Source of the DNA: a virus
Length of the DNA: 61,828 bases
Direction: 5' to 3' (one strand)
IMG/VR virus record: IMGVR_UViG_3300022821_000021
Coordinates: 1 to 61,828 of that record
Made by a program: the position numbers and the translations under genes. The notes below the pieces were generated by a model, which was not told where the DNA came from, did not search any database, and was given only the letters and a program-made list of their open reading frames with translations. How positions within the stretch are numbered: the first letter of the stretch is position 1; each line of letters begins with the position of its first letter. This document shows, one piece after another, positions 19,531 through 58,591 of the stretch.

Positions 19531-20400
19531 ATGCCAATTAGATTTACAGACGATAAAATGTTTTTCATACCGAGCGGTAGTAATGGAAGTACTACGTATG
19601 AAACCGAATCAGGTAAGCCAGGTGTACCCCAGACCTCAAGCGCGGTCATGATGTTATATGGTTCCGAACCAGATAGTGTTTCATTTTATACAATAAGTGG
19701 AAGTAATAGAGAAATGGCACCGATGCTAGTTATGAGTTCATCCGGTCATATTGGTATAGGAACGGTTCCCAGCGATACATATCCTCTTACGATGTACGCG
19801 GGTGGCACATTTGATATTCTATTTACTGATGATAGGGAAAATCCTGATGGCGGCCAAAACGGCGTACGATTATCATTTAATAATAACGGTCTTCAAGTAA
19901 CAAACGCAAGTAGCTCTGCCGATTCATTCGTATCAGCATCAGCGTTTCTTGCATCGGACCCGTTGTCAACTTCCGCATTTAAGGGCAATGTCCAGCTCAG
20001 GGCAAATACTAAATTGGGTAATGATATATCTGATATTCACCAAATCAGCGGGTCAGTAAGTATAACTGGATCACTTGATATTAATGGTATATCATCAAAA
20101 GAAATTCCGATTGGTATTTGGGACATGGACGCGACGCAAAGTGTAACAATCCCACATGGTCTGGGTAATGCAGTGACAAGTATCCGTACAGCAAATGCGT
20201 CCATAATTAATGATGTACAAACAATTGGGTATTGTCTCCCATATCTGAATACATCTAATGGTAATATTGAAGCTTCTGTAGTGTCATATGATGCTACAAA
20301 TGTAACTATTTTCCGGAAAGCATCTGGAACGTTTGATAGTACCGATTTTGACGCAACCGGGTCGAATAGGGGAACTATCTTACTAGAATATGTTATTTAA
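19531..20400 (+). CDS. Tail fibre-like protein
   Basis: A 289-residue protein three bases behind the previous stop. It has the low-complexity beta pattern of phage fibres, including a SGSVSITGSLDINGISS segment at about residues 172-190, and a C-terminal domain (IPIGIWDMDATQSVTIPHGL...GTILLEYVI) that resembles receptor-facing tips. The SVSITGSLD style recurs in the two fibre scaffolds at 45.6 and 50.3 kb, so it probably belongs to the same appendage system. Confidence 0.65.
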   Translation: MPIRFTDDKMFFIPSGSNGSTTYETESGKPGVPQTSSAVMMLYGSEPDSVSFYTISGSNREMAPMLVMSSSGHIGIGTVPSDTYPLTMYAGGTFDILFTDDRENPDGGQNGVRLSFNNNGLQVTNASSSADSFVSASAFLASDPLSTSAFKGNVQLRANTKLGNDISDIHQISGSVSITGSLDINGISSKEIPIGIWDMDATQSVTIPHGLGNAVTSIRTANASIINDVQTIGYCLPYLNTSNGNIEASVVSYDATNVTIFRKASGTFDSTDFDATGSNRGTILLEYVI

Positions 20401-20409
20401 TTTTTTTGA

Positions 20410-20417
20410 TATTTATA
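20410..20417 (+). promoter_or_regulatory. Late-promoter-like element
   Basis: TTTGATATTTATATAC ends 27 bases before the GTG start of the P-loop kinase and fits the consensus exactly. Confidence 0.6.
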
Positions 20418-20444
20418 TACAAAGTTAAACGGGAGTATTGATAA

Positions 20445-21191
20445 GTGATTGTAACTGACATAAATGTATTGAATAACTTCTTATTTGAAGGCGTTAATGA
20501 CAAAGGTGTATTAAAGGCTGTTTTTATGGCTGGAGGTCCAGGATCAGGAAAGTCATTTGCTGCTGATAAAATATTCGGTGTTGATACGATTATGTCTGGT
20601 ACAAGTACCCTCGGATTGAAAGTAATAAATTCGGACATACAGTTCGAACGATTACTTAAAAAGGTACACATTGATCCAACCAAATTAGGACAAATGACAG
20701 ATAAATTATTTCAGTACTATACAACACGACCTGAATCACCCCGCATCAAAGCAAAGGAAACCGTCACTAAATTAAAAAAGATTTATGAACTTGGTAGATT
20801 GGGCATGGTATTGGATGGTACGGGTAAGGATTATAATAAAATAGCTAACGAACAAAGTCGCTTGGAATCAATTGGGTATGATACTGCTATGGTTTTTGTA
20901 AATACAGATTTAAAGACAGCACTACAAAGAAACCGACAGCGCGAACGCGTAATCAAAGATGACCTGGTCGCCGCTTATTGGAAAAAAACGCAAGCTAATA
21001 TTGGAAAGTTCCAAACTTTATTTGGTAAATATATGTACATAGTTGATAACACCGAAATAGGTGATTTTAATAAAATACATAAAAGAAAGATATCATTGAC
21101 TACTAAATTTGTTAATAAACCAATTGATAATAATATAGGTAGACAATGGATTGAAAATGAATTAAAATTGAAGAGCCTAAATATAAAATGA
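20445..21191 (+). CDS. Zeta-toxin-like P-loop nucleoside/polynucleotide kinase
   Basis: A 248-residue protein from GTG 20445, with GGGAG 14 bases upstream as ribosome site. Walker A GGPGSGKS lies at about residues 28-35, followed by VINSDIQFE, a lid-like helical segment, the GMVLDGTGKD block near residue 125, and an arginine-rich NRQRER segment near 166. This is the pattern of zeta-toxin/AAA_33 kinases, which phosphorylate small nucleotides, sugars or RNA ends. It is coupled (ATGA overlap) to the adenylyltransferase gene, so a joint pathway is likely. Toxicity is not implied. Confidence 0.8.
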   Translation: MIVTDINVLNNFLFEGVNDKGVLKAVFMAGGPGSGKSFAADKIFGVDTIMSGTSTLGLKVINSDIQFERLLKKVHIDPTKLGQMTDKLFQYYTTRPESPRIKAKETVTKLKKIYELGRLGMVLDGTGKDYNKIANEQSRLESIGYDTAMVFVNTDLKTALQRNRQRERVIKDDLVAAYWKKTQANIGKFQTLFGKYMYIVDNTEIGDFNKIHKRKISLTTKFVNKPIDNNIGRQWIENELKLKSLNIK

Positions 21192-23500: not shown

Positions 23501-23525
23501 TACCATCCGTTTTTCGGAAATTAGA

Positions 23526-23533
23526 TATTTATA
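23526..23533 (+). promoter_or_regulatory. Late-promoter-like element before the split-intein endonuclease
   Basis: TTAGATATTTATATAT ends only 6 bases before ATG 23540, so a transcript started about 7 bases on would have almost no leader. Confidence 0.5.
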
Positions 23534-23539
23534 TATAAT

Positions 23540-24394
23540 ATGAATAAACTTTGGAAATGTACATATTGTTCTGCAAAAATAGGTGTGATTAATAAACAAC
23601 AAATATCAAATCATTATAAGAGCTGTAATCAATATAAATTATACAAAAATAGAATCTTAACTAAAGAATTTCTGTATAATGAATATGTTAATGTTGGTAA
23701 GGCTGCTAATCAAATTTCACAAGAAATCGGAATTGGGGTAAACCCAATTATTAAAGCACTATGTAAATTTGAAATCCCAACTAGATCGGTTAAAGAATCT
23801 AATAATATGAAATTATATAGAGATCGAATAAACTCTACTAATTTAGAAAAGTATGGGGCAGTAAATCCATTAAGTAAAAATACTATACCATACCATACGA
23901 AAAACAAAACAGTATTAACTAAATATGGTGTTGATAATGTTAGAAAGGCTCCTGTGATTATTGATAAAATAAAGAAAAAACTTCGAGTTTGGCGTGACGA
24001 AAACGGCCATTCTACGTTAGGACATAAACATTCAACAGTTACCAAACTGAAAATGAGAGAAAGTAATATAAAATATCGTAATACATTGGATAAATGTAAA
24101 CAATATTGTTATAACAAAAATTCAATTTCGATTCTTGAAGCCAAAGCTAAAGAACTCGGAATAACTGATATACAACACGCTGAAAATGGCGGCGAATTTC
24201 AAATTTGTGGCTATTTTGTGGATGGGTATAGTAAAGAAACTAATACAGTTTTTGAGTATGATGAAAAATATCATTTCAGAAACGGTAAATTAAAAGATAA
24301 AAATATTCAACGTCAATATATTATAATGAATGAATTGAATTGTAAATTTATACGGATTAATTATGAAAATAAAATCTATCACGAAAGTAAATAA
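23540..24394 (+). CDS. Homing endonuclease between the split-intein halves (Vsr-like / EDxHD type)
   Basis: A 284-residue protein. The N-terminus has a C2HC-type finger (CTYCSAKIG, HYKSC) and a helix-turn-helix-like segment (GKAANQISQEIGIGVNPIIK). A NUMOD-like NLEKYGAVNPLSK repeat follows. The C-terminal nuclease shows VFEYDEKYHF with Glu, Asp and His, then KDKNIQRQYIIMNELNCKFIRI, the pattern of Vsr-related homing nucleases. Its last 32 bases overlap the start of the C-intein gene. A late-promoter-like TATTTATA ends only 6 bases before ATG 23540, so its own transcript would be nearly leaderless. Confidence 0.82.
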   Translation: MNKLWKCTYCSAKIGVINKQQISNHYKSCNQYKLYKNRILTKEFLYNEYVNVGKAANQISQEIGIGVNPIIKALCKFEIPTRSVKESNNMKLYRDRINSTNLEKYGAVNPLSKNTIPYHTKNKTVLTKYGVDNVRKAPVIIDKIKKKLRVWRDENGHSTLGHKHSTVTKLKMRESNIKYRNTLDKCKQYCYNKNSISILEAKAKELGITDIQHAENGGEFQICGYFVDGYSKETNTVFEYDEKYHFRNGKLKDKNIQRQYIIMNELNCKFIRINYENKIYHESK

Positions 24395-24467
24395 GCTACA
24401 AACTAGATATGATATTCAAGTTGAAGGCCGCAAGTGTTATTATGCTAATGGTATTTTAGTGCATAAT
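24363..24467 (+). mobile_element. C-terminal half of the split intein
   Basis: The first 35 codons of the downstream precursor, ending in His34-Asn35 with Thr36 as the +1 nucleophile. The length and the YDIQVEG...ANGILVHN pattern are typical of C-inteins. It starts at an ATG inside the end of the endonuclease gene, so the endonuclease and the C-half overlap by 32 bases. Together with the 98-residue N-half the intein totals 133 residues. Confidence 0.9.
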
Positions 24468-25535
24468 ACTGATGGTCAAAATTTATTTATTACTTGGGCT
24501 AATGGTAAGTTAATGGCAGCAAGAAATACCGGTGACTTAAAACGTGGTGGTATGGACTATAAAGCAATTGCTGCAAAATTCGCAGGACGTGGTAATATAG
24601 AAAAAGCTTTTACTCTTGCTATGAAAGATTTATCTTCGGCCATATCATCCATAAATGATAAGCAACGACAGAAAATATTTGATAACGGTGGTAATTGGGT
24701 AAACATGGAAATCATTTATCCACCATCTGAAAATGTTATTTCATATGATGCACCATATCTTCAATTCCACAATGTATTACAGTATTCTGGTAGCCAAGCT
24801 AATGGCGAAGTAAAGGATGGCGCTCGTATGTTGGCCGGTATGATTAAGCAGGTAAATAAGAATTTACAAAAAAACTTTGCTATCATTGGTCCCAATGTAC
24901 TGAAGCTTCTTAAAAATAAAGACTTCGCCGAAAAGAGTTCGTATTATATTTCTAAAGTAGATACTCTCAGAAAGAAATTTAAATTGTTAGATACGTCAAC
25001 CCTCGCTGAATATCATCAAGCTTGGTGGGAAGCTTTCATAGAATCTAAATTTGGTGCTCTTGACAATAATATTAAAGTAGGATTGGTAAATCGCTGGGCC
25101 TTCTTTGACAAAAGTTTTAGGTTAAATCGCCAAAATATACCTGATGAAGCCGTTCTTGCGAAAGCAATTGAATTTGATAAAGGGTCACATTCAGATCAAG
25201 TAAAGAAAAATATGTTTCCATTTGAAGTATTGTTTTTTGAACTCGGCGTAGACGTACTTAAAAACGTAGAGAGTTTCCTCGCTGTTAATCCAGATAAGGC
25301 TGTACAGAATATACGCAATCAAGTTGCCAAAGCAATTACAGATGTTCGAAAGGGTGGTGATTTAAAGAAACTTAAAAGAATAGATACGCAATTGGCTAGA
25401 ATCAAAGCAATTGGTGGATTTGATACTATTATTCCATCCGAAGGATTGGTATTTGTATCCAATGGTAAGACTTATAAATTAACCGGCAGCTTCGGCCCCG
25501 TGAATCAAATAGCAGGATTAATGAATTTTGATTAA
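24363..25535 (+). CDS. C-terminal precursor: C-intein half plus KxDG nucleotidyltransferase (ligase-like) extein
   Basis: A 390-residue protein. Residues 1-35 are a C-intein: YDIQVEGRKCYYANGILVHN contains block F and the terminal His-Asn of block G. Residue Thr36 is the first extein residue. The extein starts TDGQNLFITW and has AARNTGDL, VNMEIIYPPSENVISYD near residue 125 and, at the end, EGLVFVSNGKTYKLTGSFGP. With the upstream Lys these read as motifs I, III, IV and V of the covalent nucleotidyltransferase (ATP/NAD ligase, capping enzyme) superfamily. The substrate is unknown. RNA or DNA ligation is the likeliest chemistry. Confidence 0.85.
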   Translation: MKIKSITKVNKLQTRYDIQVEGRKCYYANGILVHNTDGQNLFITWANGKLMAARNTGDLKRGGMDYKAIAAKFAGRGNIEKAFTLAMKDLSSAISSINDKQRQKIFDNGGNWVNMEIIYPPSENVISYDAPYLQFHNVLQYSGSQANGEVKDGARMLAGMIKQVNKNLQKNFAIIGPNVLKLLKNKDFAEKSSYYISKVDTLRKKFKLLDTSTLAEYHQAWWEAFIESKFGALDNNIKVGLVNRWAFFDKSFRLNRQNIPDEAVLAKAIEFDKGSHSDQVKKNMFPFEVLFFELGVDVLKNVESFLAVNPDKAVQNIRNQVAKAITDVRKGGDLKKLKRIDTQLARIKAIGGFDTIIPSEGLVFVSNGKTYKLTGSFGPVNQIAGLMNFD

Positions 25536-37897: not shown

Positions 37898-37910
37898 GTA
37901 CCTAATTTGA

Positions 37911-39721: not shown

Positions 39722-40240
39722 ATGTGTGCAATGTATGGTGGCGAAAGGGATATCTCTCTTTTCAGACATTTAAATAAAGAACTTATCAATAACATCATCG
39801 ATGTTACTGTAGATGTATTTAAGCTATCCATCACAGATGTACAAGAAAGTCTATATGATGAAGCTATAAATAAAGTATATAAGCAGCCTGTTAGAATACC
39901 ATGTTTAATTGGTAGAGATGATCAACAATGGAATTCAGATGACTTCGGGTCAGATGTAAACCAATCCATGACATTTGCATTTTTACGTGACACGTTAAAA
40001 GATGACGCGGACATTGTTATGGAAATAGGTGATATTATAAAATGGAATGAAAATTTCTGGGAAGTAGGTGGGATTATTGAAAATCAATTTGTGGTAGGAA
40101 AGAATCCTGATACTGATCATGTTGGTGGTACATTTGGTGGCAATCATTCAATCATATGTAGTGCTCATTTAACAAGACGTTCAAATCTTTCAATTGAAAG
40201 AACAAACACTGGAAATCCAGATAATCTATATTACAGCTAA
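39722..40240 (+). CDS. 14: Neck protein, gp14-like
   Basis: A 172-residue protein. GGERDISLFRHLNKELIN near the N-terminus and a central VRIPCLIGRDDQ, then EIGDIIKWNENFWEVGGII segment, resemble neck and head-completion proteins of T4 relatives. It starts at ATG 39722, with a second ATG at 39731 closer to the conserved part. It overlaps the gp15-like gene by one base. Assignment leans on position between gp13- and gp15-like genes. Confidence 0.65.
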   Translation: MCAMYGGERDISLFRHLNKELINNIIDVTVDVFKLSITDVQESLYDEAINKVYKQPVRIPCLIGRDDQQWNSDDFGSDVNQSMTFAFLRDTLKDDADIVMEIGDIIKWNENFWEVGGIIENQFVVGKNPDTDHVGGTFGGNHSIICSAHLTRRSNLSIERTNTGNPDNLYYS

Positions 40241-41640
40241 TGGCAAAGAAACCAACTGCAAACAAGTCTAAACAAGAAACGGTAAATAGAGCCAATGTTA
40301 TTAGAAGAAATGATGACGTTGCAAATATTACCGTAGGACTTTACGAGCATGATGAAGCCGTGAAGTATTATATAGATAATCATATAAAGCCACATGTAGT
40401 TGATAGTAATAACGAATCATCAATGGTGCCTGTTATCTATGGCAGCCCAGAAAGATGGAAATCAGTACAAAAAACTACATTCTATAGAGATAAAGAAGGA
40501 AAGACACAAGTACCTCTTATCATGTATAAGCGCACATCCATTGAAAAGGATAGAAGTTTATCACGTAATGTAGATGCAAATAATCCTCAAATTCATCAGT
40601 ACATAACAAACCAACGTTCACCGGTTAATAAGTATGATGACATAGATAGGTTAATTGGTAGAATTCCAGTAAGGGAATTACATAGAGTTGTTGTTCCTGA
40701 TTATGTAACTTTAACATATGAATTTATTATTTGGACTGATTTCATCGGCCAAATGAATAAAATTATTGAAGCTATAAATTATGCAGAAGGCGCCTTCTGG
40801 GGCGACCCAAAACGTTTTATTTTTTCAACAGCAATTGATAATTTTTCAAACACGGTAGAAGTAAATCAAGGTGAAGATAGAGCAATTCGAACTTCATTTT
40901 CGTTACAATTACGTGGATATATTATACCTGATAATATACAGAAAGCTGCCACAGAACAAAGTCAAAAGGTATTTACCAGAGCCGTTGTTCATTTTGGTGA
41001 AAGTGTAGATGGTAATTTGATTACTCAAAACAACTCATTGCTTACAGTAGGCGGCGGCCAACCAAACGGTACCGGGGTAGGCGGGAATGCAACAATTAAT
41101 ATTAATGGTGTGTTGTATTCACTTGTTCCTGCATCTACAACCGAAGACATACCTGTTATTAATACTGCAGCCGATCCAGTCGGAGAAATAAGCGCGAGTA
41201 ATGTATTAATCGATGATGTTACATTTTCAGTATTGAATCCAGATTCAAGTGTAATTACTTCATCTCAATTCGTATATAGCTCAAGTTATGAAATTGACAT
41301 TAACAGTTATTGTTACCCCGCCCAATTATCATTAAGTTTTCCCGATGGAACAACTGATTCATATAGTATTGCTTCATCGGGAAGTCTAGCAGTCAGTATA
41401 GACCCTGAACTCGTAATTTCATTGGCTGGAACGGAAACAACATATACATTCATATCACCTGCTTGGTCTGGTTCATATACAGTAACGTCACAAAGTTTAG
41501 CAGGTGCCGGCTCAATATCAACTGTTGTAGTTGATGGCAATCCAGCATCTGGTTCATTTATTTCTCAATCTATTGCAGCATCGGTTTCATCTAGTTTTAG
41601 TATTTCCGGTTCTGTTACATCGGTTACACTTACATTTTAA
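40240..41640 (+). CDS. 15: Tail completion/sheath stabiliser gp15-like with C-terminal extension
   Basis: A 466-residue protein. Residues about 60-250 follow T4 gp15: VPVIYGSPERWKSVQ, then IPVRELHRVVVPDYVTLTYE, FIIWTDFIGQMNKIIEAINY, FIFSTAIDN and FSLQLRGYIIP. gp15 caps the tail tube and sheath. Beyond residue 270 come about 195 residues of Gly/Ser/Thr-rich beta sequence not present in T4 gp15, ending FSISGSVTSVTLTF. That ending resembles a micro-ORF just downstream. The extension may hold whiskers or adhesins. Confidence 0.72.
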   Translation: MAKKPTANKSKQETVNRANVIRRNDDVANITVGLYEHDEAVKYYIDNHIKPHVVDSNNESSMVPVIYGSPERWKSVQKTTFYRDKEGKTQVPLIMYKRTSIEKDRSLSRNVDANNPQIHQYITNQRSPVNKYDDIDRLIGRIPVRELHRVVVPDYVTLTYEFIIWTDFIGQMNKIIEAINYAEGAFWGDPKRFIFSTAIDNFSNTVEVNQGEDRAIRTSFSLQLRGYIIPDNIQKAATEQSQKVFTRAVVHFGESVDGNLITQNNSLLTVGGGQPNGTGVGGNATININGVLYSLVPASTTEDIPVINTAADPVGEISASNVLIDDVTFSVLNPDSSVITSSQFVYSSSYEIDINSYCYPAQLSLSFPDGTTDSYSIASSGSLAVSIDPELVISLAGTETTYTFISPAWSGSYTVTSQSLAGAGSISTVVVDGNPASGSFISQSIAASVSSSFSISGSVTSVTLTF

Positions 41641-41646
41641 TCCACT

Positions 41647-41763
41647 ATGAATTTACACAGAATCTTATTTATTAATCAAGGTAGGAAGCCGGCCTCAGCA
41701 CGTTTGGCAGATATTACGTTCGACATCACGGGCACGGTTACTACCTTAACTTTGGAGTTCTAA
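41647..41763 (+). CDS. 38-codon micro-ORF, possible transferred tail of a foreign upstream gene
   Basis: ATG 41647 to TAA 41761-41763. The last 14 residues FDITGTVTTLTLEF resemble the last 14 of the gp15-like gene just upstream (FSISGSVTSVTLTF). The DNA is more GC-rich than the gp15 gene and overlaps the next adhesin ATG as TAATG. It may be untranslated: a relic of a donor phage's upstream gene carried in with the adhesin cassette. Confidence 0.4.
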   Translation: MNLHRILFINQGRKPASARLADITFDITGTVTTLTLEF

Positions 41764-42578
41764 TGGCGAAGCGATACTACCTTTTTGGGCATGAGGCAGC
41801 GCCAGCGTTCACGCCGATACTTGATACGTATCCAGGCGCGAATCTTGCGTATTCAAGTGCAAGAAAACTAAAAAATACAGCTACTTACGCTTATAAACTA
41901 TCCAATTCTTCTGGCACATTGGATGTAGGATTTATAGGTGAAGATGTGGATGACGTGTTGGCGCAAACATTTTCCAACCTTGACGGCGGGATTACCTATG
42001 TTGATATAATTTACGACCAGTCTGGTAATGCTAGGGACGCTGTTTTCTTAGCCGGGAAAAAGCCATATTTCAAAAACGGAGTGTTTTATGATGTTTCCGG
42101 GAAGCCTGCCATAAGTGCTGAACTAGGCACTATGTACTATGATTATCCATCTTCTTTTGTTACCAATGCTCTTTTTTGTGCTATAAAACCAGTCGCCCAA
42201 TCCGCACAGAATTACATATTGTCCGGCGCATTGCTTTCATATGGCTACTCAATTGGCGGTACCTCTGCCGGGAGGTTCCCATTCGTCGCAAAGGGGGCAC
42301 AAAATTTGTTTTCAATTGACACTGTTGCTAGTAATTCCCCCTACATAGAGACCTTTGTAAACTATGGGCCAACCAATAGCATCTACATAAACAATTCCCA
42401 AACAACTAATTCCGATGTCATAAAAGACATCACAATAACTTCTCTTTTTAGGCCACCATCTTCAATTGGCCGTGGGTTCAGGTCTTGTATGGCCGAGATA
42501 ATTACGTACGAAACAGACCAATTTTCAAACGAGGCCGGGATTAGGGCAAACATCAACAATTACTACACGATTTATTAA
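41763..42578 (+). CDS. Receptor-binding/adhesin cassette, arabinofuranosidase-type lectin fold
   Basis: A 271-residue protein. LDTYPGANLAYSSARKLKN, IGFIGEDVDDVLAQTF-like text and VDIIYDQSGNARDAVF match the N-terminal part of AbfB-type arabinofuranosidase domains, which occur often in phage tail adhesins. The N-terminal GHEAAPAF is shared with the gene at 43137. The base composition is richer in GC than surrounding genes. It is probably a tail-bound carbohydrate-recognition protein. Catalysis is not evident. Confidence 0.65.
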   Translation: MAKRYYLFGHEAAPAFTPILDTYPGANLAYSSARKLKNTATYAYKLSNSSGTLDVGFIGEDVDDVLAQTFSNLDGGITYVDIIYDQSGNARDAVFLAGKKPYFKNGVFYDVSGKPAISAELGTMYYDYPSSFVTNALFCAIKPVAQSAQNYILSGALLSYGYSIGGTSAGRFPFVAKGAQNLFSIDTVASNSPYIETFVNYGPTNSIYINNSQTTNSDVIKDITITSLFRPPSSIGRGFRSCMAEIITYETDQFSNEAGIRANINNYYTIY

Positions 42579-42587
42579 AATCAAATC

Positions 42588-42635
42588 ATGGCATTTACAT
42601 TAGAACAAAGGCGTACACTTTCGCTGGACAAGAAA
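42588..42635 (+). repeat. Direct repeat, copy 1 (partner at 43860-43907)
   Basis: The 48-base copies differ at two positions and each marks the 3' edge of an adhesin cassette. The region after them (TTATAATCAAT to TGATATTTATA) is also conserved, so recombination could use the whole block. Confidence 0.85.
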
Positions 42636-42671
42636 ACCACCGAACGCATCGCGGGCACCATGAAGAACTGA
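42588..42671 (+). CDS. 27-residue micro-ORF, copy 1 of a repeated element
   Basis: ATG 42588 to TGA 42669-42671. The product MAFTLEQRRTLSLDKK plus 11 residues is nearly identical to the micro-ORF at 43860. The first 48 bases of each copy differ at two sites. It stands at the 3' end of an adhesin cassette and precedes a TATTTATA element. It may be a short attachment peptide, or the residual start of a gene whose body was lost. Confidence 0.45.
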   Translation: MAFTLEQRRTLSLDKKTTERIAGTMKN

Positions 42672-42690
42672 TTATAATCAATCTAATTGA

Positions 42691-42698
42691 TATTTATA
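42691..42698 (+). promoter_or_regulatory. Late-promoter-like element
   Basis: ATTGATATTTATATAA, 11 bases before ATG 42710. Its upstream flank TTATAATCAAT is repeated at 43966. Confidence 0.6.
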
Positions 42699-42709
42699 TA
42701 AAATAACAA

Positions 42710-43135
42710 ATGTCTTTAATAATACGCGTAAATAATATACCAACCGGTTCAATTAATGTGAATAATACTCCATTCACTACAATAATACCAACCGGGTCAG
42801 TTAATATACAAGTAGTAAATGGAACAGGATCATTAGTAGGTGAATTATCAGGGTCTCAATGGCTAGTACCTGACGTACATTATGTTGATATGATTTCATT
42901 GGGATCGAATACATCATATGCAACGACAGCATCATTTAGAGATTCATCAACGCTTACAGTTGCAACACAATCAATTGTTAATGGAACTATTGATTCCGGT
43001 TCATTATACATTTCAAGTTCAAATGGATTAAGTGAATTTATATCACAAAGTATTTCAGATGGTGATGCAATTCAATTCAATTATACACCAACCGATACAG
43101 GTTCGGTATTTAAGGTTCTTTTAAATTTAGAATAA
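42710..43135 (+). CDS. Small Ser/Thr-rich fibre-like protein
   Basis: A 141-residue protein starting 11 bases after a TATTTATA element. It repeats PTGSxNV-type units (PTGSINVNN, PTGSVNIQVVNGTGS) and ends in a beta domain. The base composition is AT-rich like the older part of the genome, unlike the cassettes on both sides. It is probably a fibre or adhesin-adapter. The family is not recognised. Confidence 0.6.
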   Translation: MSLIIRVNNIPTGSINVNNTPFTTIIPTGSVNIQVVNGTGSLVGELSGSQWLVPDVHYVDMISLGSNTSYATTASFRDSSTLTVATQSIVNGTIDSGSLYISSSNGLSEFISQSISDGDAIQFNYTPTDTGSVFKVLLNLE

Positions 43136-43136
43136 T

Positions 43137-43850
43137 ATGGCGAGAATTTATCATTCATGGCATGGGCATGAGGCAACGCCACCTTTTGCGAATGACTATT
43201 CATTTTACGAGTCTTCGATTTGGAGAATGACGGGTGCGACTTGTTTAGCAAATGTTGCCCCCGGCGATTCGTGGGCCTTATCAATGTGGATTAAAACATC
43301 TGTTGCATTTGCTACTGAATTGCCATTTTTGACAATGGTATCCACGCCGGGTGCCGGTTATTGGCGGCTTCGTTTTGCCCCGACCTATATCTATTTTGAC
43401 CACCTTGTACAATTTGGCGGCAACCTAAGAAACAGGATAATAACAAGTTATGGGATAAATGACAACACTTGGCACCATGTGGCTGTTATTGCTAATAGCT
43501 ACACATACGACTTTGCCGATGTTGATTTATATATTGATGGTCTTGCGGTGGGCAGTAAATTCACCCAGATCACGCCCGCATCGCTGCCTTGGTCAGCAAC
43601 GGGGGATGCTGAGATATTGGCGTCGAGCAAATCAGGGGAGATATATTTAGACGAGTGGGCATTTTTTGACTATGCCCCGGCCATTGCGGACCTATACAAT
43701 GGCGGCACCCCCGGCAATTTAGACCTACTCCCGACCAGCCCGTTAAACTGGCTGAGGGGCGAAAACAACCTAACAGATTCCGGCACTTTAGCAGACACAA
43801 TAACCCAGGTTAGTACCAACCCGCCAATCTACTCAACTGACGTACCATAA
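43137..43850 (+). CDS. LamG/concanavalin-like adhesin cassette
   Basis: A 237-residue protein one base after the previous stop. It carries the lectin pattern ALSMWIKTSVAFATELPFLT, TWHHVAVIANSY, DLYIDGLAVGS and EIYLDEWAFFDYAPA. The opening WHGHEATPPF matches the N-terminus of the 41763 gene, although the rest differs. GC content is clearly higher than that of flanking genes. It is likely a sugar-binding tail protein acquired as a module. Confidence 0.68.
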   Translation: MARIYHSWHGHEATPPFANDYSFYESSIWRMTGATCLANVAPGDSWALSMWIKTSVAFATELPFLTMVSTPGAGYWRLRFAPTYIYFDHLVQFGGNLRNRIITSYGINDNTWHHVAVIANSYTYDFADVDLYIDGLAVGSKFTQITPASLPWSATGDAEILASSKSGEIYLDEWAFFDYAPAIADLYNGGTPGNLDLLPTSPLNWLRGENNLTDSGTLADTITQVSTNPPIYSTDVP

Positions 43851-43859
43851 TCTAACATC

Positions 43860-43907
43860 ATGGCATTTACATTAGAACAACGGCGGACACTTTCGCTGGA
43901 CAAGAAA
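43860..43907 (+). repeat. Direct repeat, copy 2 (partner at 42588-42635)
   Basis: The second copy of the 48-base block, at the right edge of the LamG cassette. Its first 14 bases also begin the gene at 48066. Confidence 0.85.
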
Positions 43908-43952
43908 TTTACCGAGAACGTCGCAGGGACAATGAAAAGACCCTATTTATAA
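43860..43952 (+). CDS. 30-residue micro-ORF, copy 2 of a repeated element
   Basis: ATG 43860 to TAA 43950-43952. The first 16 residues equal those of the micro-ORF at 42588. The C-terminus diverges and its stop overlaps a TATTTATA that precedes the proper promoter-like site at 43966. It again follows an adhesin cassette, so the micro-ORF travels as the cassette's right border. Confidence 0.45.
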   Translation: MAFTLEQRRTLSLDKKFTENVAGTMKRPYL

Positions 43953-43965
43953 TCAATTTCACTGA

Positions 43966-43973
43966 TATTTATA
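43966..43973 (+). promoter_or_regulatory. Late-promoter-like element
   Basis: ACTGATATTTATAATA, 24 bases before the glycoside hydrolase. A second TATTTATA at 43944-43951 lies inside the end of the micro-ORF. Confidence 0.6.
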
Positions 43974-43997: not shown

Positions 43998-45527
43998 ATG
44001 ATAAAATTAAAACAACAATCAGGTGTAACAACGTATTTAAATTACGGATCAAGTAATACATTATATAATCCAGTAAGACCTGGTAATTACGTCAATCGAT
44101 TATTAAACATAAAACTACATCGACACTTTGTTGATAATCGTAGATATGTTGCAGGAGGTGGCCCTCCTGGATTCAATGTAGATAGTATTAATCAATTTAT
44201 GCCAGCACGTATGCCTCAGGGCTTTTGGACCGACGAATACCTACAGCTATTAAAAGACGCAGGTGTTGAAAATATATGGTCATTACAAGGTAAGTTTCCG
44301 TTTCAAGATACAATAGGTACACCTTCCAAAGTAATGCCAATCAATGAAGCAGATTATCCAGATCAGGGTAATCCTGGTGTATGGTTTGAACTTGGAAAAT
44401 ACGCCGGACAAGTGGCAATTAGATACGCAGATGATTCATCAGCATTTATTGACTCAGCTGATGTATGGCAACATGACCCTAATTCTATTACTAATCTCCA
44501 TCCAAGTTATTTAAGTAACACACCAAAGGCAGGTATGGGACTAGTTCAAATTATCCAAGTATTAAACGAACCAAACGTAAACCCCGATTGGATAGGTGCA
44601 ACAAATAGTATTACAGCCGAAGGAACAGCAGCAGCTTATTACGCAGTTTATACTGAAGTTCGTAAGTACTCTCAAACAATTAAGATAGTGACCGGTCCTC
44701 CAATTGGAATTAAAAATGATAGGGAATTCCTACGTAGAATGCTAGACCATTTGAAAGTATTATTCGGTGGTAAAGTACCATCCGATGTTTATATTTCGTT
44801 CCATTGGTACATGCGAGAACTTAACCAAAATCAAGGGCAAGGTGGTACTGACACAGGCGCTTCTCCTGAATTTGTTGATGCATACGAACTAGGACTATGG
44901 GTAAATGACCTCTGCCATGAATTTGATATTGCAGGTTGGTATTGTACTGAAACCGGCTGGTCATCATCGCCCAATATAGATACAAGTAAAAATGCAGCTC
45001 CTATACAGGAAGGATTCACACAATTGGAATCTCATGGTGTATTAATGACGCGATTAGTATTAATGTGGAGTTCATTGGATAAGCATATGGCTACTACGTT
45101 TTGGCATTGTAAGGATGCATATGATTCGGGTGCATATTTTAACGGCGGATTGTTATATAAGGATGCTGAATCAACACGTAAGCCATCACTTAGAATATAT
45201 GAAGACTTTATTTCAAGTTGGGGTGAATATGACGTTACAGGATACTATCCAAATTCATTAACTAATGAATATTATGCTACGTTACTTGGACCTACCGGCG
45301 ATTTTATTACGTTGGGTTGGAGCGATAAAGATAATTCTGGAGAACTTACACCAGACCCAACCATTGTATCTACAGTCATTTTGCCTGACCCAGTACCGAC
45401 AGGTAGCCTACCTCCAACAGGAAGTGAAAAACCTACTATTGAAGTTGATTTCACATCATTGAAATCTATTACATTTGAAACTGAAACTGAAAATATTAGA
45501 TTCGTAATATCAGGCTCAGTCGTTTAA
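43998..45527 (+). CDS. Virion-associated glycoside hydrolase (clan GH-A TIM barrel)
   Basis: A 509-residue protein. The acid/base Glu is in QVLNEPNVNPDW (Glu191) and the probable nucleophile in CTETGWSS (Glu318), the arrangement of GH-A retaining glycosidases. SFHWYMREL and FWHCKDAYDSGAYFNGGLLY are barrel-end segments. Residues about 445-509 are a proline linker and a short beta tail ending VISGSVV. There is no signal peptide, as expected for a structural enzyme. It would degrade capsule or exopolysaccharide during adsorption. The exact family and substrate are unknown. Confidence 0.82.
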   Translation: MIKLKQQSGVTTYLNYGSSNTLYNPVRPGNYVNRLLNIKLHRHFVDNRRYVAGGGPPGFNVDSINQFMPARMPQGFWTDEYLQLLKDAGVENIWSLQGKFPFQDTIGTPSKVMPINEADYPDQGNPGVWFELGKYAGQVAIRYADDSSAFIDSADVWQHDPNSITNLHPSYLSNTPKAGMGLVQIIQVLNEPNVNPDWIGATNSITAEGTAAAYYAVYTEVRKYSQTIKIVTGPPIGIKNDREFLRRMLDHLKVLFGGKVPSDVYISFHWYMRELNQNQGQGGTDTGASPEFVDAYELGLWVNDLCHEFDIAGWYCTETGWSSSPNIDTSKNAAPIQEGFTQLESHGVLMTRLVLMWSSLDKHMATTFWHCKDAYDSGAYFNGGLLYKDAESTRKPSLRIYEDFISSWGEYDVTGYYPNSLTNEYYATLLGPTGDFITLGWSDKDNSGELTPDPTIVSTVILPDPVPTGSLPPTGSEKPTIEVDFTSLKSITFETETENIRFVISGSVV

Positions 45528-45632: not shown

Positions 45633-47351
45633 ATGTCTAATAGTGTAAATGTAAATACTACAAGTAATATAGTGACCGTAATAAACGGTTTAGATACTGT
45701 TATTACGGTAGTTGAACTTGGACCGCAGGGACCAACAGGACCGCAAGGGCCATCCGGATCCGCATCAGGAGTTATAACTGGGTCATTATTAGTTACTGCC
45801 TCTGCCGCCAGTAACGTAATCACTTTTACGAAAGGTAACGCAACTACATTTGATATTACAGTTGATACGGGATCGGCTGCTACAATAGATACTGGTTCCT
45901 TTGTTACTAATTCGCAGACATCATCAATGTCTGTATTGTCGGCATCATATGCTCCTGATGATTATGATTGGAATGATGATGGCACGTTTTTAACTGCATC
46001 ACGTAATGTTATACTTCAGGGTTCATTTTCGGCATCTAGTTTTTTATTCGGTAGTCTATCGGATTCAACCGATAAATCTAAAATTGTAACCTACGGAGAT
46101 TTCGGTAGATTGAACTATATGGATTCGGGAAGTATTTTATTCTCCGATCAATCATCGTCAATGACGGTGTTATCAGCCTCACACGCAGTAACAGCATCTT
46201 ATGCTTTAAGTGGCGGATCAGGAGCAACATTCCCATATACAGGAAGTGCGATAATAAGCGGTTCATTAACTGTAACAGGAAGTGTATCTGTAGCAGGTGA
46301 TGTACAAATTAATGATGGATATAAATACAAAACTTTTTATGCCTCAGAATTATATGGTGATGGTGCAACATTTTATGTAAATGCTAATACCCCAGGACAA
46401 GAAACAATAATAAGTGTTAATGCATTAGATGATATTCAACTAAAAGCAAAGACAATAATATTAAGTGGTTCGACTACAGTTGTAATCGATGGGCCTGCGT
46501 TGATACCATTATATACAAACATTAGTGATTTAGGCCATACGGCCGCAATATGGAATACAGTATATGGAACTACATTTAGTGGGTCTGTATTTAGTGGGTC
46601 ACATGTGGGTGATGGTTCTGGTTTAACTGGAATAGCTTCCGCATCATACAGTGACACAGCCGTTACAGCATCTTATATTCTAAATGCAGTTACAGCATCA
46701 TACGTATTAAACGCCGTTTCAGCATCATATGCTCCATCCGCCGGCGGTGGTTCAGATACAGATTGGTATCAGTCAGGTTCGTACTTAACAGCATCAGCTG
46801 ATATTGACATAACAGGTTCAATATATTTATCAGGGTCAGTTGTATCACATTCAATACTAACGCTTGAAGGATCAGGGTCAGCTAATCCAGTATTCTTGGT
46901 TAAGGGTACATCCGGCGAATTATTCAGTATCACAGACAGTTTAACGGGTTCTCTATTCTCAGTAAATAATGAATATGGTTTACCGATATTAGAAGTTGAT
47001 TCGAATGACGAAACATATATTGGAACATATAATGCACGTTCATTATATACGACAGCATTAATATCATCAACTACATCGTCTGTTACGGAATCAGTATTTT
47101 CAATTAGTACATCTTCATATGAAGGAGCATTCTTCGATTATACAGTATCGTCGGCATCTAACGCACGTGCCGGAAATATAACAGCAATATGGAATAATGG
47201 CACCGCGTCATTCAATGAAGTAACTACAGCTGATATTGGCGTTACATCTAATGTATTTTTATCGGCTGAAATTTCTGCATCTCAACTTCACTTATTAAGT
47301 AAGACAGATACAGATAGTTGGAAAATCAAAACAATCGTAAGGTCAATATAA
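45633..47351 (+). CDS. Fibre scaffold with collagen-like and ASYA repeats
   Basis: A 572-residue protein. A short collagen-like run GPQGPTGPQGPSG lies near residue 30. Many SASYA / TASYV / GS-type turns follow, including VLSASYAPDDYDW and AVTASYILNAVTASYVLN, and a GDGSGLTGIASASY segment. The C-terminal 150 residues are a compact tip (SGELFSITDSLTGSLFSVNN, ending WKIKTIVRSI). It is a long trimeric-type fibre onto which the neighbouring lectin and enzyme proteins could attach. It shares style with the gene at 50346. Confidence 0.72.
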   Translation: MSNSVNVNTTSNIVTVINGLDTVITVVELGPQGPTGPQGPSGSASGVITGSLLVTASAASNVITFTKGNATTFDITVDTGSAATIDTGSFVTNSQTSSMSVLSASYAPDDYDWNDDGTFLTASRNVILQGSFSASSFLFGSLSDSTDKSKIVTYGDFGRLNYMDSGSILFSDQSSSMTVLSASHAVTASYALSGGSGATFPYTGSAIISGSLTVTGSVSVAGDVQINDGYKYKTFYASELYGDGATFYVNANTPGQETIISVNALDDIQLKAKTIILSGSTTVVIDGPALIPLYTNISDLGHTAAIWNTVYGTTFSGSVFSGSHVGDGSGLTGIASASYSDTAVTASYILNAVTASYVLNAVSASYAPSAGGGSDTDWYQSGSYLTASADIDITGSIYLSGSVVSHSILTLEGSGSANPVFLVKGTSGELFSITDSLTGSLFSVNNEYGLPILEVDSNDETYIGTYNARSLYTTALISSTTSSVTESVFSISTSSYEGAFFDYTVSSASNARAGNITAIWNNGTASFNEVTTADIGVTSNVFLSAEISASQLHLLSKTDTDSWKIKTIVRSI

Positions 47352-48049
47352 TGTCCGGAGTAATTGGCATACGAGACATACCACCCAGAAATGGTCTGAT
47401 GTTATATTATGATTATGGTAATCCACGATGCTATCCCGGCACCGGCACAGATGTTTTTGATTTATCGGTTAATGGCAATCATGGCGAAATAATGCTTAAT
47501 GGACTAATATCTACCGACTTTGGCGGAGTGTTTAGGATGCCCGGTGTAGACGACAAAATCACTACACCGTATCACGCAACCTTGCACCCAACGACAGGTA
47601 TGACTGTTGTGTTTTTTGTTAAGAGTCCATTTACAAACGTAAACGTTGGCGGGGTAGGTGTACTGGGAGGCGGCGGAAATCGAGGGTGGGCGCTGGGTAA
47701 TTCATTAACTGACGCTGCCCGGTTCTACGTTGCCGAAACCGTATCAACGCTCAGAAATTCCGGCGTCGCCACATTTGACGTGTCCGACCGCTGGGTGATG
47801 ATGTCAGGCAGATACGACCCTTCAAATTATATCGACTATGGCGTAAACGCCGTACAAGTGTCTGTAAACACTACGAGCGCTCCCGCTAATACGATCGACA
47901 ATGGTAACGACTTCCAAGTTGGCGAACGCGGGCAAAACGCCGGAGAAATTGATGGTGACATTGGCCCCACGCTTATTTATAATCGTCCAATCACAGACTC
48001 AGAACTAACACGAATTTTTAACATATTTAAGCACCGCTTCGGAATTTAA
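47351..48049 (+). CDS. LamG-like adhesin cassette
   Basis: A 232-residue protein from ATG 47351 (TAATG overlap). An upstream in-frame ATG at 47318 lies inside the fibre gene and is not needed. The pattern is LMLYYDYGNPRCYPGTGT, DLSVNGNHGEI, TGMTVVFFVKSP, WVMMSGRYD and PTLIYNRPITDSELTRIFN, the layout of concanavalin-like lectin/glucanase domains. GC content is high in places, as in the other cassettes. No catalytic residues are evident. Confidence 0.68.
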   Translation: MSGVIGIRDIPPRNGLMLYYDYGNPRCYPGTGTDVFDLSVNGNHGEIMLNGLISTDFGGVFRMPGVDDKITTPYHATLHPTTGMTVVFFVKSPFTNVNVGGVGVLGGGGNRGWALGNSLTDAARFYVAETVSTLRNSGVATFDVSDRWVMMSGRYDPSNYIDYGVNAVQVSVNTTSAPANTIDNGNDFQVGERGQNAGEIDGDIGPTLIYNRPITDSELTRIFNIFKHRFGI

Positions 48050-48776: not shown

Positions 48777-49193
48777 ATGACAACAATAGGCGGACCAAGA
48801 ATATCACAAGCTCAAACCCAAGTAAGATTAAGTCAGCAATCAGGTGTAACAACGTATTTAAATTATGGGTCAGGTAATGAATTGTATGATCCACGTGATA
48901 CATCAAATTATGTTAATCGATTATTAAATATAAAACTACATAGACATTTCGTAGATAATCGCAGATATGTAGCAGGCGGCGGAACCGCTGCTTCCAATTC
49001 GGCTAGCGCTAACATATTCATACCACAAAGAATGCCTCAAGGCTACTTTACCGATGAGTATTTACAGATGTTAACTGATAATGGTGTTGAAACAATGTGG
49101 TCATTACAGGGTAAATTTCCATTTCAAGACACGATTGGTTCCCCAACAAAAGTAATGCCTATTAACGAAGCAGATTATAGTGTAATTTATTAG
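48777..49193 (+). pseudogene. Truncated duplicate of the glycoside hydrolase at 43998
   Basis: 138 residues. From SQQSGVTTYLNYGS to PINEADY it follows the first 110 or so residues of the 43998 enzyme closely (RLLNIKLHRHFVDNRRYVA, SLQGKFPFQDTIG), then stops after four unrelated codons. Both catalytic Glu residues are missing, so it cannot be an active enzyme. The N-terminal part of the barrel may instead be kept as an attachment domain. A leading 14-residue piece (TTIGGPRISQAQTQ) is new. Confidence 0.8.
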
Positions 49194-49212: not shown

Positions 49213-49241
49213 TAAGATAACAACTAAAAAGGATGATGATT

Positions 49242-50336
49242 ATGGGCTTTTGGAAACACTTTATGAATTGGTGGAATAGTAATAACACACCTGTAGATCC
49301 ACCTGTGGAACCACCTGTGGAACCACCTGTGGAACCACCTGTGGAACCACCAGTATCACTCGATGTATTTTATCACGGTGTATGCGCCCAAGGTTCATTT
49401 AGAAGTAAAGTACACAAAACAAAAAACGCTACAACTATAGCAACACGTATTGCCAATTCACTAAGTTTAATGAATGTCAAAAGTGTTAGAATTCCATCTG
49501 GAACGCCAACTGTAGGATATTGGATTACAGGTGAAGGTTACGGTGAAAGTAAGTACGCTGGCTTTAAGGGCGTAGATAATCCTCCCGTTCCCGCCGGCGA
49601 ACCAAATTATTTTAAAATCTGTATTGAAGCAGCTAAGCAAGCGGGATGTGGTGTTTGGTTAACCATACATGTACATATGGATAAGGATGACATTAAAGAA
49701 GTCATTGATTACGTAATGGAAAACGATGTTGAAATTCATGGCGTTGGTATCAGTAATGAACCGTATGCACCTGAAATGTATCAAGCCGATCTTCCATCAG
49801 AAGAAATCCCAGCGTACCCACAAAAAATTCAATGGCTACGAGAATTAGGATTTGAAGGATACATTGGTGTACCTACATTAGTTGGTCTTGGCCGTTCCGG
49901 CCGTGAAGCTCGCGCCAAAGAATATAATGATTTATTGATTGCAGCAATCCCTGTTAGTAGGTTCAATGACCCAGCTGAAAAGTTGTGTTTAGAAATCCAC
50001 CCATATTTCGCACCAGATAATTTTGATACGTATACACCAGTACAATACATGGATTGGTTCATGTCGCAGTTAGATTCTATTTACACAAGTAATGTAAAAG
50101 TATCGATTACTGAATGGGCTAAGAAAAATCAACATCAATTTGATGCACAAACGACAGGCCGTGTTATAAATGATTACTTAGATTATTTCCAAAACACGCT
50201 GGGTGATCGTGTAGTCGGTGCATATTATCAATCTCTTGGTGGCCAACCCACTCAAGGGTTGTATGATTACGAAAACGATGAATTAACAGCACAAGGTAAT
50301 GCATTTAAGATATTGTCAGATGCAGTAACAACGTAA
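49242..50336 (+). CDS. Second glycoside hydrolase (GH-A type) with PPVE linker
   Basis: A 364-residue protein. AAAGGA eight bases upstream selects ATG 49242; ATG 49233 and 49236 lie inside that site. A short amphipathic start (GFWKHFMNWWNSN) is joined by a (PPVE)n linker to the catalytic barrel, with acid/base Glu in GVGISNEPYAP and the likely nucleophile in VSITEWAKKN. LEIHPYFAPDNF fits the active-site His/Tyr strand. It is a probable polysaccharide depolymerase on the virion. The PPVE hinge would let it swing. The family is not assigned. Confidence 0.78.
   Translation: MGFWKHFMNWWNSNNTPVDPPVEPPVEPPVEPPVEPPVSLDVFYHGVCAQGSFRSKVHKTKNATTIATRIANSLSLMNVKSVRIPSGTPTVGYWITGEGYGESKYAGFKGVDNPPVPAGEPNYFKICIEAAKQAGCGVWLTIHVHMDKDDIKEVIDYVMENDVEIHGVGISNEPYAPEMYQADLPSEEIPAYPQKIQWLRELGFEGYIGVPTLVGLGRSGREARAKEYNDLLIAAIPVSRFNDPAEKLCLEIHPYFAPDNFDTYTPVQYMDWFMSQLDSIYTSNVKVSITEWAKKNQHQFDAQTTGRVINDYLDYFQNTLGDRVVGAYYQSLGGQPTQGLYDYENDELTAQGNAFKILSDAVTT
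49289..49353 (+). repeat. Tandem 12-base repeats encoding PPVE
   Basis: About five copies of a CCACCTGTGGAA unit, four of them exact in sequence, code for the proline hinge of the glycoside hydrolase. The last unit drifts to CCACCAGTATCA. Near-identical tandem copies suggest recent slippage and possible length variation between relatives. Confidence 0.9.
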
Positions 50337-51947: not shown

Positions 51948-53726
51948 ATGGCTGAATTTACGACTAATGTAGTATCTAAAGGTATATTTGAACCAGATAC
52001 ATACGTAATAGGAAATAATACAGGTCAATTAGATACGGTAGTAGCCCTACTTAACAGCGGCAGTATCCAGAGAATATTCTACACGGCCACAGCTAGTGAT
52101 GAATTTCCTACGTCATCTACTTGGAGCGCGTCGAATTATGCTACTATTAATTCCGATATAGAGGCTACTGCTGTAGGGGATAGACAAGCTAAGTTCTTGG
52201 AATTCATTAATGATGTTACTGGAAGTAGAGGATATAGCGGACTAACTAGAACTAATGCAAAGGGATACGCCCAGCTTTTATATATGGACGTATACCCAGC
52301 ATATGGGTTTTCACCATTACAATCAACTAATTCAACATCAAGCTTTGGCGATCCCACCGTCGCCGCGCCGATATTACTTTATTTCCACGGCGGAGGCTTT
52401 GACGTAGGGTATTCTAATTTCGAGGCCACTCCAGATGAAACCATTAATCAGTTTCGCCGGGCCGGAATCCATTGTATAACGGTGGAATATAGACGGGGAT
52501 GGACCGCAGTTACTGGGTCTTTATTTAATCTTACAGATGTACAATCACCGGAAAGATTATTGGGTGTAACGTCGACTCTTATGGGGTATAGTCTTACCGA
52601 CCAAAATACAACGCCGCCGTCATTTAGTATTGATAATGGAACTGAATTTTTACAAACTGCGTTGGGAACATCTGGTATGGCAACGATAGACGCCATCGAT
52701 GCATGGGATTGGGTTGATGATAATATTCAAACAGTATTACCAAACGCAATTAAAAAATACATTATACAGGGTAATTCAGCAGGCGGCGCCCAGACCGCAC
52801 AACTTACATTTGCAAATGATTTAGGTAATAATAAATTAAATCGCTTGGAAAAAAAGGTAATTGGGTCCATAGAATCATTTGGATCATATACTGCATCCGT
52901 GGAAATGGACACTATAATACGTAATCGTGAAATACCATATCCAGTAATTATGCAAAGCGCTGGAGCAGACAAGCTCGTACCATTTAGAGATAACCATTTA
53001 TTTTATCAGACAAACGCGCCTGTTGCCAAAGGAACATACGATCAATATGCCACTTTAAGTGAGAGTAATAAAAATGTCTATTGGTATAATACACCACTTG
53101 GCGGCCACGGCTATGATAATTGGGACGTAACTTTTAATTTACTCGGTACTGATGATTTACGTGAAGTAGAATATGTGAACTTTGCATTAAATATAATTAA
53201 TAAAAGTATTGGCGGCGAAACCCTACCACCGTCTCATTGGGTTACTAGGGTTGATACAACATTGGTTCTATTAAGTTCATCGTTACAATACCCCGGACCT
53301 GGATACTATACCAGTTTAACAGAAGATAGCGATATATTTTCATTGTATAATACAGCGTCTATGTTTTATGATATACCATTTACCAAAGGAATATCAACTC
53401 CCTGGTTTTACACAAGTTCTACCGTGGAAGGTACGTTTGAAACACAAAGTGTATCTTTGGTTTTAAGTAATTCTACTGGGCTTGCTATTGAATATGTAAT
53501 GTCTGAATCAGCACGTAGGCATCAAATAGCATCTAATGCCATTGGCCAAAAAATACTTCAAACTAATAACGAATCATTTCCAAGTAACTATACGGACTAT
53601 TCGTTACATCACTATGGCGATATAAATGGAACGGCAGTAAGTAAGGACTTTCATACATACGCTGAAATGTCAACATCAATTGCATCAGCATCCACCGCCA
53701 TAACACCCACAGATCCATTTCTGTGA
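51948..53726 (+). CDS. Virion alpha/beta-hydrolase (carbohydrate esterase-like)
   Basis: A 592-residue protein. LLYFHGGGFDVGYS carries the HGGG oxyanion loop. VEYRRGW is the usual strand after it. IIQGNSAGGAQTAQ holds the nucleophile Ser277. MQSAGADKLVPFRDN gives the Asp region, and NTPLGGHGYDNW gives the catalytic His. This is the hormone-sensitive-lipase/type-B-esterase pattern. The C-terminal 170 residues are a beta-rich attachment or binding domain. It probably removes O-acetyl or similar groups from host surface sugars, working with the glycosidases nearby. Confidence 0.83.
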   Translation: MAEFTTNVVSKGIFEPDTYVIGNNTGQLDTVVALLNSGSIQRIFYTATASDEFPTSSTWSASNYATINSDIEATAVGDRQAKFLEFINDVTGSRGYSGLTRTNAKGYAQLLYMDVYPAYGFSPLQSTNSTSSFGDPTVAAPILLYFHGGGFDVGYSNFEATPDETINQFRRAGIHCITVEYRRGWTAVTGSLFNLTDVQSPERLLGVTSTLMGYSLTDQNTTPPSFSIDNGTEFLQTALGTSGMATIDAIDAWDWVDDNIQTVLPNAIKKYIIQGNSAGGAQTAQLTFANDLGNNKLNRLEKKVIGSIESFGSYTASVEMDTIIRNREIPYPVIMQSAGADKLVPFRDNHLFYQTNAPVAKGTYDQYATLSESNKNVYWYNTPLGGHGYDNWDVTFNLLGTDDLREVEYVNFALNIINKSIGGETLPPSHWVTRVDTTLVLLSSSLQYPGPGYYTSLTEDSDIFSLYNTASMFYDIPFTKGISTPWFYTSSTVEGTFETQSVSLVLSNSTGLAIEYVMSESARRHQIASNAIGQKILQTNNESFPSNYTDYSLHHYGDINGTAVSKDFHTYAEMSTSIASASTAITPTDPFL

Positions 53727-57755: not shown

Positions 57756-58591
57756 ATGAACGGAATTATAGCAATAAGTAAAGAAAAATCTAATCGTGGT
57801 ACTCCAAAACGAGTTAAAAAAATATGTGAATGGACTAATATAGAATTTTGGATAGATTGGAAATATAGACACCAGCGATTTAAAGATATTAAAACAATGC
57901 ATGATTGGAGATCGGCGACAGCGCATGAAATTGTAAATTGTTTGAATTGCGGAACTTCGTTCGAACGATATAAAAATTGGAAACATCGTAGTTCCGGGAA
58001 ACCAGCCCAGTATTGTTCAAATTACTGCAGTGTTTCATCAATTGAAAAAAGAAAGAAATTACAAGTCTGGGCTAACAGTGAAAAAAATCATTGGAATACT
58101 AAAAATGCCAAGATAAAGTTAGACGGACCAAATTGAAAAGATATGGGGATGAGAATTACAATAATCCAGAATTGAATAAAAAAACAATGATGGAAAAGTA
58201 TGGTGTTCCATATGCAGTATATTTACCACACGTACAATCGAACGGAAAATCAATTTCAAATGGACAGCGACAGCTATATGAAATAGTTAAACAAAAATAT
58301 AGTGATGCTAAACTTGAATGTTTCTTAAAAGATGTTGCCATATCAGTAGATATATTTATACCAAGTGAAAATAAAGTTATAGAATATTTTGGTGATTATT
58401 GGCACTGTAATCCAATAAAGTATGATAAAGATTATTACCACACACAAATTCACAAGATAGCTGAAGATATATGGAAATCTGACTTAGATAGAATTGAATT
58501 GTTAAAATCTAATGGATATGTTGTTGGCATAATATGGGAATCCGATTTTAATAAAGATAAATCTAAAATTAATGATACTTATATACAGTAA
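57756..58591 (+). pseudogene. Frameshifted homing endonuclease between sheath and tube genes
   Basis: The first frame (57756-58136) has a zinc finger CLNCGTSFERYKNWKHRSS...YCSNYC and stops at TGA 58134. The second frame, open from 58103 to 58591, reads VRRTKLKRYGDENYNNPEL and then a Vsr-like nuclease (NKVIEYFGDYWHCNP, IWKSDLDRIELLKSNGY, GIIWESDF). In intact relatives the TKLKRYG stretch is preceded in frame by the N-terminal part, so a -1 shift between about 58103 and 58133 broke it. Reinitiation at TTG 58133 remains possible. No intron is seen. Confidence 0.75.
58576..58583 (+). promoter_or_regulatory. Late-promoter-like element before the tail tube gene
   Basis: AATGATACTTATATACAG lies in the last codons of the broken endonuclease, 30 bases before the tube ATG. 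The element lets gp19 be expressed independently of the insertion. Confidence 0.5.

Follow-up and report, generated by a model that had tools for sequence, protein, structure and literature searches.

A near-invariant DNA edge follows different adhesin cores in a predicted T4-like phage and a putative crAss-like phage

In a 61.8-kb virus record, which we analysed over its whole length and refer to as the window, two neighbouring adhesin genes with different cores are each followed by the truncated start of a longer gene. We found the same edge behind both of the tandem adhesin genes of a second record, IMGVR_UViG_3300035698_005399, which appears to be a crAss-like phage, while the window belongs to a predicted T4-like phage. 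Transfer of the adhesin cores is well supported. In the explanation that we favour, with a probability of about 60%, the cores were acquired laterally from a shared GC-richer donor pool by homologous recombination at shared edges, a mechanism to which the pattern of breakpoints points. The data thus suggest that two unrelated kinds of phage draw interchangeable adhesin genes from a common pool.

Family matches of the capsid, portal, sheath and tube proteins identify the phage of the window, at the sequence level, as T4-like. Judged by the capsid, its nearest isolates include Microcystis phage Mel-JY01 and Flavobacterium phage immuto. Both adhesin genes lie just downstream of a putative gp15-like gene (40240-41640, named from its location and from the T4-type gene order) and within a region of adhesin-like genes (Table 1). 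The short ORF ahead of the first cassette has an AT-rich start and a GC-rich remainder (GC 0.55 at 41681-41740 versus 0.33 at 41601-41660). A search for relatives of this ORF found none, and it is a possible remnant of an earlier import. The gene between the cassettes had no match in family searches. Its stop codon abuts the start of adhesin 2, so that the promoter-like site at 42689 probably serves both genes in one transcript. Elsewhere in the window we noted homing-endonuclease-like genes of the SegE GIY-YIG and HNH types (13291-13758, 23540-24394 and 57756-58591); the genes at 27598 and 21188-25535 appear to carry intein-like insertions. For the tail-region genes at 49233-50336 and 51948-53726, matches to a GH5 cellulase and, below the cut-off, to an alpha/beta-hydrolase suggest polysaccharide-active tail enzymes.

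Table 1. Features of the two adhesin cassettes and their borders (positions in the window)
Feature	Position	Strand	Remark
Short GC-rich ORF, 37 aa	41650-41760	+	just 5' of cassette 1
Adhesin 1, 271 aa	41763-42578	+	leader MAKRYYLF, then GHEAAPAF, arabinofuranosidase-B-like core
5' edge copy 1 (TGGGCATGAGGCAGCGCCAGCGTT)	41786-41809	+	direct repeat; 13-nt exact match to crAss-like cassette 1
51-nt shared block copy 1	42585-42635	+	near-identical in four copies, two unrelated phages
Micro-ORF 1, 27 aa	42588-42671	+	truncated start of longer gene; crAss-like copy at least 47 codons
TTATAATCAAT plus promoter-like GATATTTATA, copy 1	42672-42698	+	phage side of junction
Phage gene, 141 aa	42710-43135	+	low GC, between cassettes
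Adhesin 2, 237 aa	43137-43850	+	leader MARIYHSWH, then GHEATPPF, LamG core
5' edge copy 2 (TGGGCATGAGGCAACGCCACCTTT)	43163-43186	+	direct repeat; 15-nt exact match to crAss-like cassette 1
51-nt shared block copy 2	43857-43907	+	near-identical in four copies, two unrelated phages
Micro-ORF 2, 30 aa	43860-43952	+	truncated start, divergent allele of same donor gene
TTATAATCAAT plus promoter-like GATATTTATA, copy 2	43947-43973	+	

The preliminary description of this locus had assigned a LamG and an arabinofuranosidase-type fold to the two adhesins, and our searches agree that the cores differ. The product of the gene at 43137 matched Pfam Laminin_G_3 (PF13385) with an E value of 2e-9 and 38.2 bits, above the curated cut-off of 27.6. 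The product of the gene at 41763 itself had no Pfam match, to ArabFuran-catal (PF09206) or any other family. Three aligned relatives did match that family (best 6.6e-10), and the family profile matched arabinofuranosidase B (1wd3, 2.6e-6). Because the relatives match PF09206 and the window protein does not, we call it arabinofuranosidase-B-like only. Predicted structure models were poor (pLDDT 45 and 58), and a Foldseek search with the LamG model returned jelly-roll lectin folds, laminin-G-type ones among them, at low TM-scores; the LamG call therefore rests on the sequence match. In IMG/VR, the core at 41763 had no close relative and that at 43137 had one, at 26%. Their carbohydrate-binding-type folds and their position in the tail region suggest that the cores bind host receptors. 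Tailed phages depend on adhesins for their host range.

A rise in GC content inside the cassettes had also been described. It holds for third codon positions (GC3 0.42 for 41763 and 0.48 for 43137, genome mean 0.26, sd 0.058), and codon usage is likewise strongly non-uniform, with z values of -3.5 and -3.6. A third GC-rich gene lies at 47351-48049 (GC3 0.44, LamG-like, PF13385); it has an AT-rich leader, MSGVIGIRDIPPRNG, and is without any copy of the edge. The start of the gene after it, ATGGCATTTACATT, equals the micro-ORF's first 14 nt, whether by coincidence or not.

The GHEAxPxF opening common to both adhesins is a 24-nt repeat at the DNA level, the copies being 88% identical. This 5' edge is short, with exact matches of 13-15 nt, and the second crAss-like cassette has a degenerate version of it. 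Elsewhere, GHEATPPF turned up in 12 genome contigs and a single IMG/VR contig (L009), about as often as estimated for chance, and the reading frames were unrelated. Downstream of the adhesins lies an 89-nt repeat (42576-42664 and 43848-43936, 82% identical), beyond which a 50-nt repeat opens with TTATAATCAAT (42672 and 43947). The near-identical micro-ORF reported after each gene (MAFTLEQRRTLSLDKK) is there, its first 16 residues being the same in both copies. Chance would give 0.02 matches in the window for the degenerate pattern of the micro-ORF start and 0.00 for the TTATAATCAAT...TATTTATA pattern.

Searched across IMG/VR, the degenerate pattern of the micro-ORF start hit one other contig, IMGVR_UViG_3300035698_005399, and a second IMG/VR search with peptide patterns returned this contig only. 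In the collections searched, the edge was carried by only these two phages. Whole-record nucleotide comparison with the window matched the cassette edges and nothing else. The capsid relatives of this record are uncultured phages and Flavobacterium Fpv, Bacteroides, Cellulophaga and Azobacteroides phages, the named ones of which we take to be crAss-like; its terminase and portal match phage families. These relatives and families support its assignment to the crAss-like phages. Two tandem LamG adhesin genes, with the edge after each, are located at the end of the record. Both begin with a phage-specific leader, MPKFGLG(V/I)NLEK(N/K)NSG, followed by HEAT in adhesin 1 and YGATPPFAN in adhesin 2. 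The ORF in the edge stops after 16 codons in copy 1; in copy 2 it reaches the contig end after at least 47 codons. For the gene upstream, a search for relatives found only itself. The GC3 values of the two adhesins, 0.43 and 0.55, are the highest in that genome (0.21, sd 0.067).

All four adhesins thus have top or near-top GC3 in their own genome and deviant codon use; they are foreign by composition. As in a mosaic receptor-binding module shared between unrelated phages, the related DNA lies in phages whose capsid relatives differ, and the module is foreign by both GC3 and codon usage. It is extremely unlikely that misjoined metagenome contigs produced the shared edge. Although the crAss-like contig ends inside its last edge copy, both window copies are interior with phage genes on either side, the four cores differ, and exact matches between pairs of copies reach at most 24-51 nt, which is short for misjoining.

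In the 51-nt block, ATCATGGCATTTACATTAGAACAA is common to all four copies, and any two of them differ at 1-3 positions within the first 48 nt of the ORF. Window copy 2 and the long crAss-like copy differ at 1 of 48 positions and then at 11 of 30 (Fisher P=6e-5), or, counting third positions, at 1 of 16 in the block and then at 6 of 10. Past codon 16, the same count, 11 of 30, separates window copy 2 from window copy 1, and the short crAss-like copy consists of unrelated sequence from the base where window copy 2 diverges. Identity therefore collapses at the block end in two of the four copies, whereas window copy 1 equals the long crAss-like copy over the 30 nt past codon 16. The two crAss-like leaders differ at 6 of 36 nt and their blocks at 1 of 48. 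A block that is common while both sides vary is the pattern expected from recombination in the block or from selection on it; selection, not recombination, could account for its conservation.

Simple duplication within the window was rejected as a full account, because window copy 1 differs from a crAss-like copy at 2 of 78 positions but from window copy 2, which lies 1.27 kb off, at 13 of 78. The micro-ORF is more plausibly the 5' remnant of a donor gene than a gene in its own right, since it spans 16, 27, 30 and at least 47 codons in the four copies. A functional small protein conserved alongside the adhesin, such as a cofactor, is very unlikely: three copies agree in all of the first 16 residues and the fourth comes close, but the lengths differ widely, one copy ends at codon 16, and conservation is seen in the DNA for 16 codons and then lost.

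The varying right ends are also what one would expect if the edges were passenger scars with no role in exchange, left by separate illegitimate transfers of an adhesin and the start of the next gene from one donor lineage, so that the common edge would mark shared origin only. The import in a relative of the window phage (see below) has a different micro-ORF, which means that a downstream scar can arise without the 51-nt block, and no recombinase was found in either record (the records may be incomplete). We nevertheless regard such scars as a rather unlikely explanation: the cores are of different folds or subfamilies, so that one donor locus cannot supply all of them, and the block begins four imports in two phages and is far better conserved than either flank.

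The promoter-like element GATATTTATA had been described together with TTATAATCAAT as part of the repeat after each micro-ORF. We found 8 copies of it in the window (for example at 37909, 42689, 43964, 45590 and 49203) where about 1 is expected, all of them on the coding strand and most no more than about 50 nt 5' of a gene start. The motif is also present in a relative, L016, and does not follow the edge copies in the crAss-like phage. It is probably a promoter motif that belongs to the phage, and we rejected it as a cassette edge. Since this promoter-like element is phage-wide and the phage's own, the cassette ends before it, and only TTATAATCAAT is special to the two junctions. Being common to both, TTATAATCAAT may mark a duplicated insertion point.

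Under homologous recombination at shared edges, each cassette would consist of a phage-specific leader, a foreign core and a downstream scar. The leader peptide would anchor the adhesin to the virion, and the foreign core would begin at about TGGGCATGAGGC. The scar would represent the first codons of the gene that came after the adhesin in the donor, with the 51-nt block as common edge; the donor would then be GC-richer and have an adhesin ahead of a gene starting MAFTLEQRRTLSLDKK. Homologous recombination of the annealing type, acting in the edges, could add or replace cores: the short 5' edge would keep leader and core in one reading frame, and the 51-nt block would serve as the other arm. 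The core has no promoter-like site of its own, and the resident downstream promoter would then drive the next gene. A broader version, in which a mobile cassette with a conserved linker allows Crassvirales and T4-like phages to place adhesins, swapped or stacked, in frame after their own leaders by recombination at the linker, is a tentative possibility. The exchange by slotting in that was first proposed is thus upheld as far as the same downstream edge recurs with other cores in an unrelated phage; that the edges are actively used is our interpretation.

Searches for the downstream donor gene found none in phage records or, by peptide pattern, in species genomes, and searches without positive control found none in plasmids or in 782 genomes of two phyla. 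The pattern ERIAGTMK/ENVAGTMK, taken from the rest of the gene, returned 11 contigs, among them one homologue (L001). In the collections searched, no population with alternative cores at one slot was seen.

Alternatively, the 51-nt block might be the site of a recombinase encoded elsewhere, in an integron-like cassette system. The unit is indeed one gene plus a short downstream element, in tandem in the crAss-like phage, and the boundary is sharp at one base in two copies. We consider this quite unlikely, as the left edge lies inside a coding region and neither record (both may be incomplete) contained a tyrosine or serine recombinase or a resolvase family match. Moreover, single-strand DNA folding of the four borders was weak throughout (z -0.12, -0.03, -1.38 and -1.64) and, judged by the number of shuffles, did not exceed that of shuffled sequence in three of the four; an attC-like hairpin is not supported.

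A search with the gp15-like protein gave 66 loci in IMG/VR. Of these, L016 and L035 come closest; between 38.5 and 41.0 kb of the window they match it at about 71%. Past that stretch, L016 has no nucleotide similarity to the window until the counterpart of 54.0-55.4 kb. It carries a collagen-like fibre gene directly after the gp15-like gene, and the edge was absent from its contig. The closest relative thus has other genes at the slot, as the preliminary description led one to expect. L016 has a GC-rich gene of its own at 19735-20805 (GC3 0.51 versus a median of 0.22), which encodes a DUF285 protein with an AT-rich leader, is followed by a different micro-ORF, MASEIQIKKALANNTTKTQPSITK, and is the clearest adhesin-like GC3 outlier among 689 ORFs of relatives. 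We regard it as a comparable, parallel import with its own scar. GC-rich DUF285/PKD-like genes were located at this site and at 2728-3960 of L105. The leader MAFTFGPRL is common to the LamG-like window gene at 48066 and to the L016 gene at 16807, which has a different core. Given this leader and the L016 import, a leader with an exchangeable core appears to be a broader habit of the lineage, the imports with the 51-nt edge forming one particular family. Within the window, a 138-aa ORF (48777-49193) resembles a truncated second copy of the 5' part (43998-44400) of the 509-aa gene at 43998, the two having long peptides in common, such as NYVNRLLNIKLHRHFVDNRRYVAGGG. This partial duplication looks like another sign of recombination in the region.

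Although adhesins are documented to move between unrelated phages, the DNA usually keeps no trace of the route. In the two phage groups compared here, a short, near-invariant edge that shows a sharp identity boundary is still present after each of four different cores. The edge (the 51-nt block; TGGGCATGAGGCAAC) can serve as a probe for the donor pool and for alternative cores per slot in environmental reads.

Our literature search found general precedents and no described edge of this kind. Invertible tail-fibre segments, as in Mu and P1, and diversity-generating retroelements vary adhesins; PMC10579305 cites both. In the cassettes described here the edges are direct and not inverted repeats, and no serine recombinase that could accompany an invertible segment was found in either record. 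Unlike in diversity-generating retroelements, the differences lie between whole cores and not at scattered adenines; neither record (both may be incomplete) contained a reverse transcriptase. Integron gene cassettes, consisting of a gene plus attC, are similar in that one gene with a short downstream element occurs in tandem and lacks a promoter-like site of its own; they differ in that we found no attC-like folding here, no integrase in either record (both may be incomplete), and a left edge that lies within a coding region.

In T-even gp38 adhesins, conserved glycine-rich motifs alternate with hypervariable segments (PMC12529663), which likewise places variable receptor-binding segments within conserved borders. 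Those borders are structural parts of one protein family, whereas here the downstream border lies outside the adhesin gene and the folds differ. Host-recognition modules are common to the distantly related tailed Alteromonas phages A5, V22 and P24 (PMC10579305); receptor-binding genes have moved between morphologically distinct phages there, and recombination was proposed. In those phages whole fibre-plus-chaperone modules are homologous, while here a short, near-invariant DNA edge is shared and the cores differ. Transfer of receptor-binding modules (PMC10579305) and conserved motifs bordering variable gp38 segments (PMC12529663) are therefore already known; what is new is a near-invariant edge, derived from a truncated downstream gene, that accompanies different adhesin cores in a predicted T4-like and a putative crAss-like phage.
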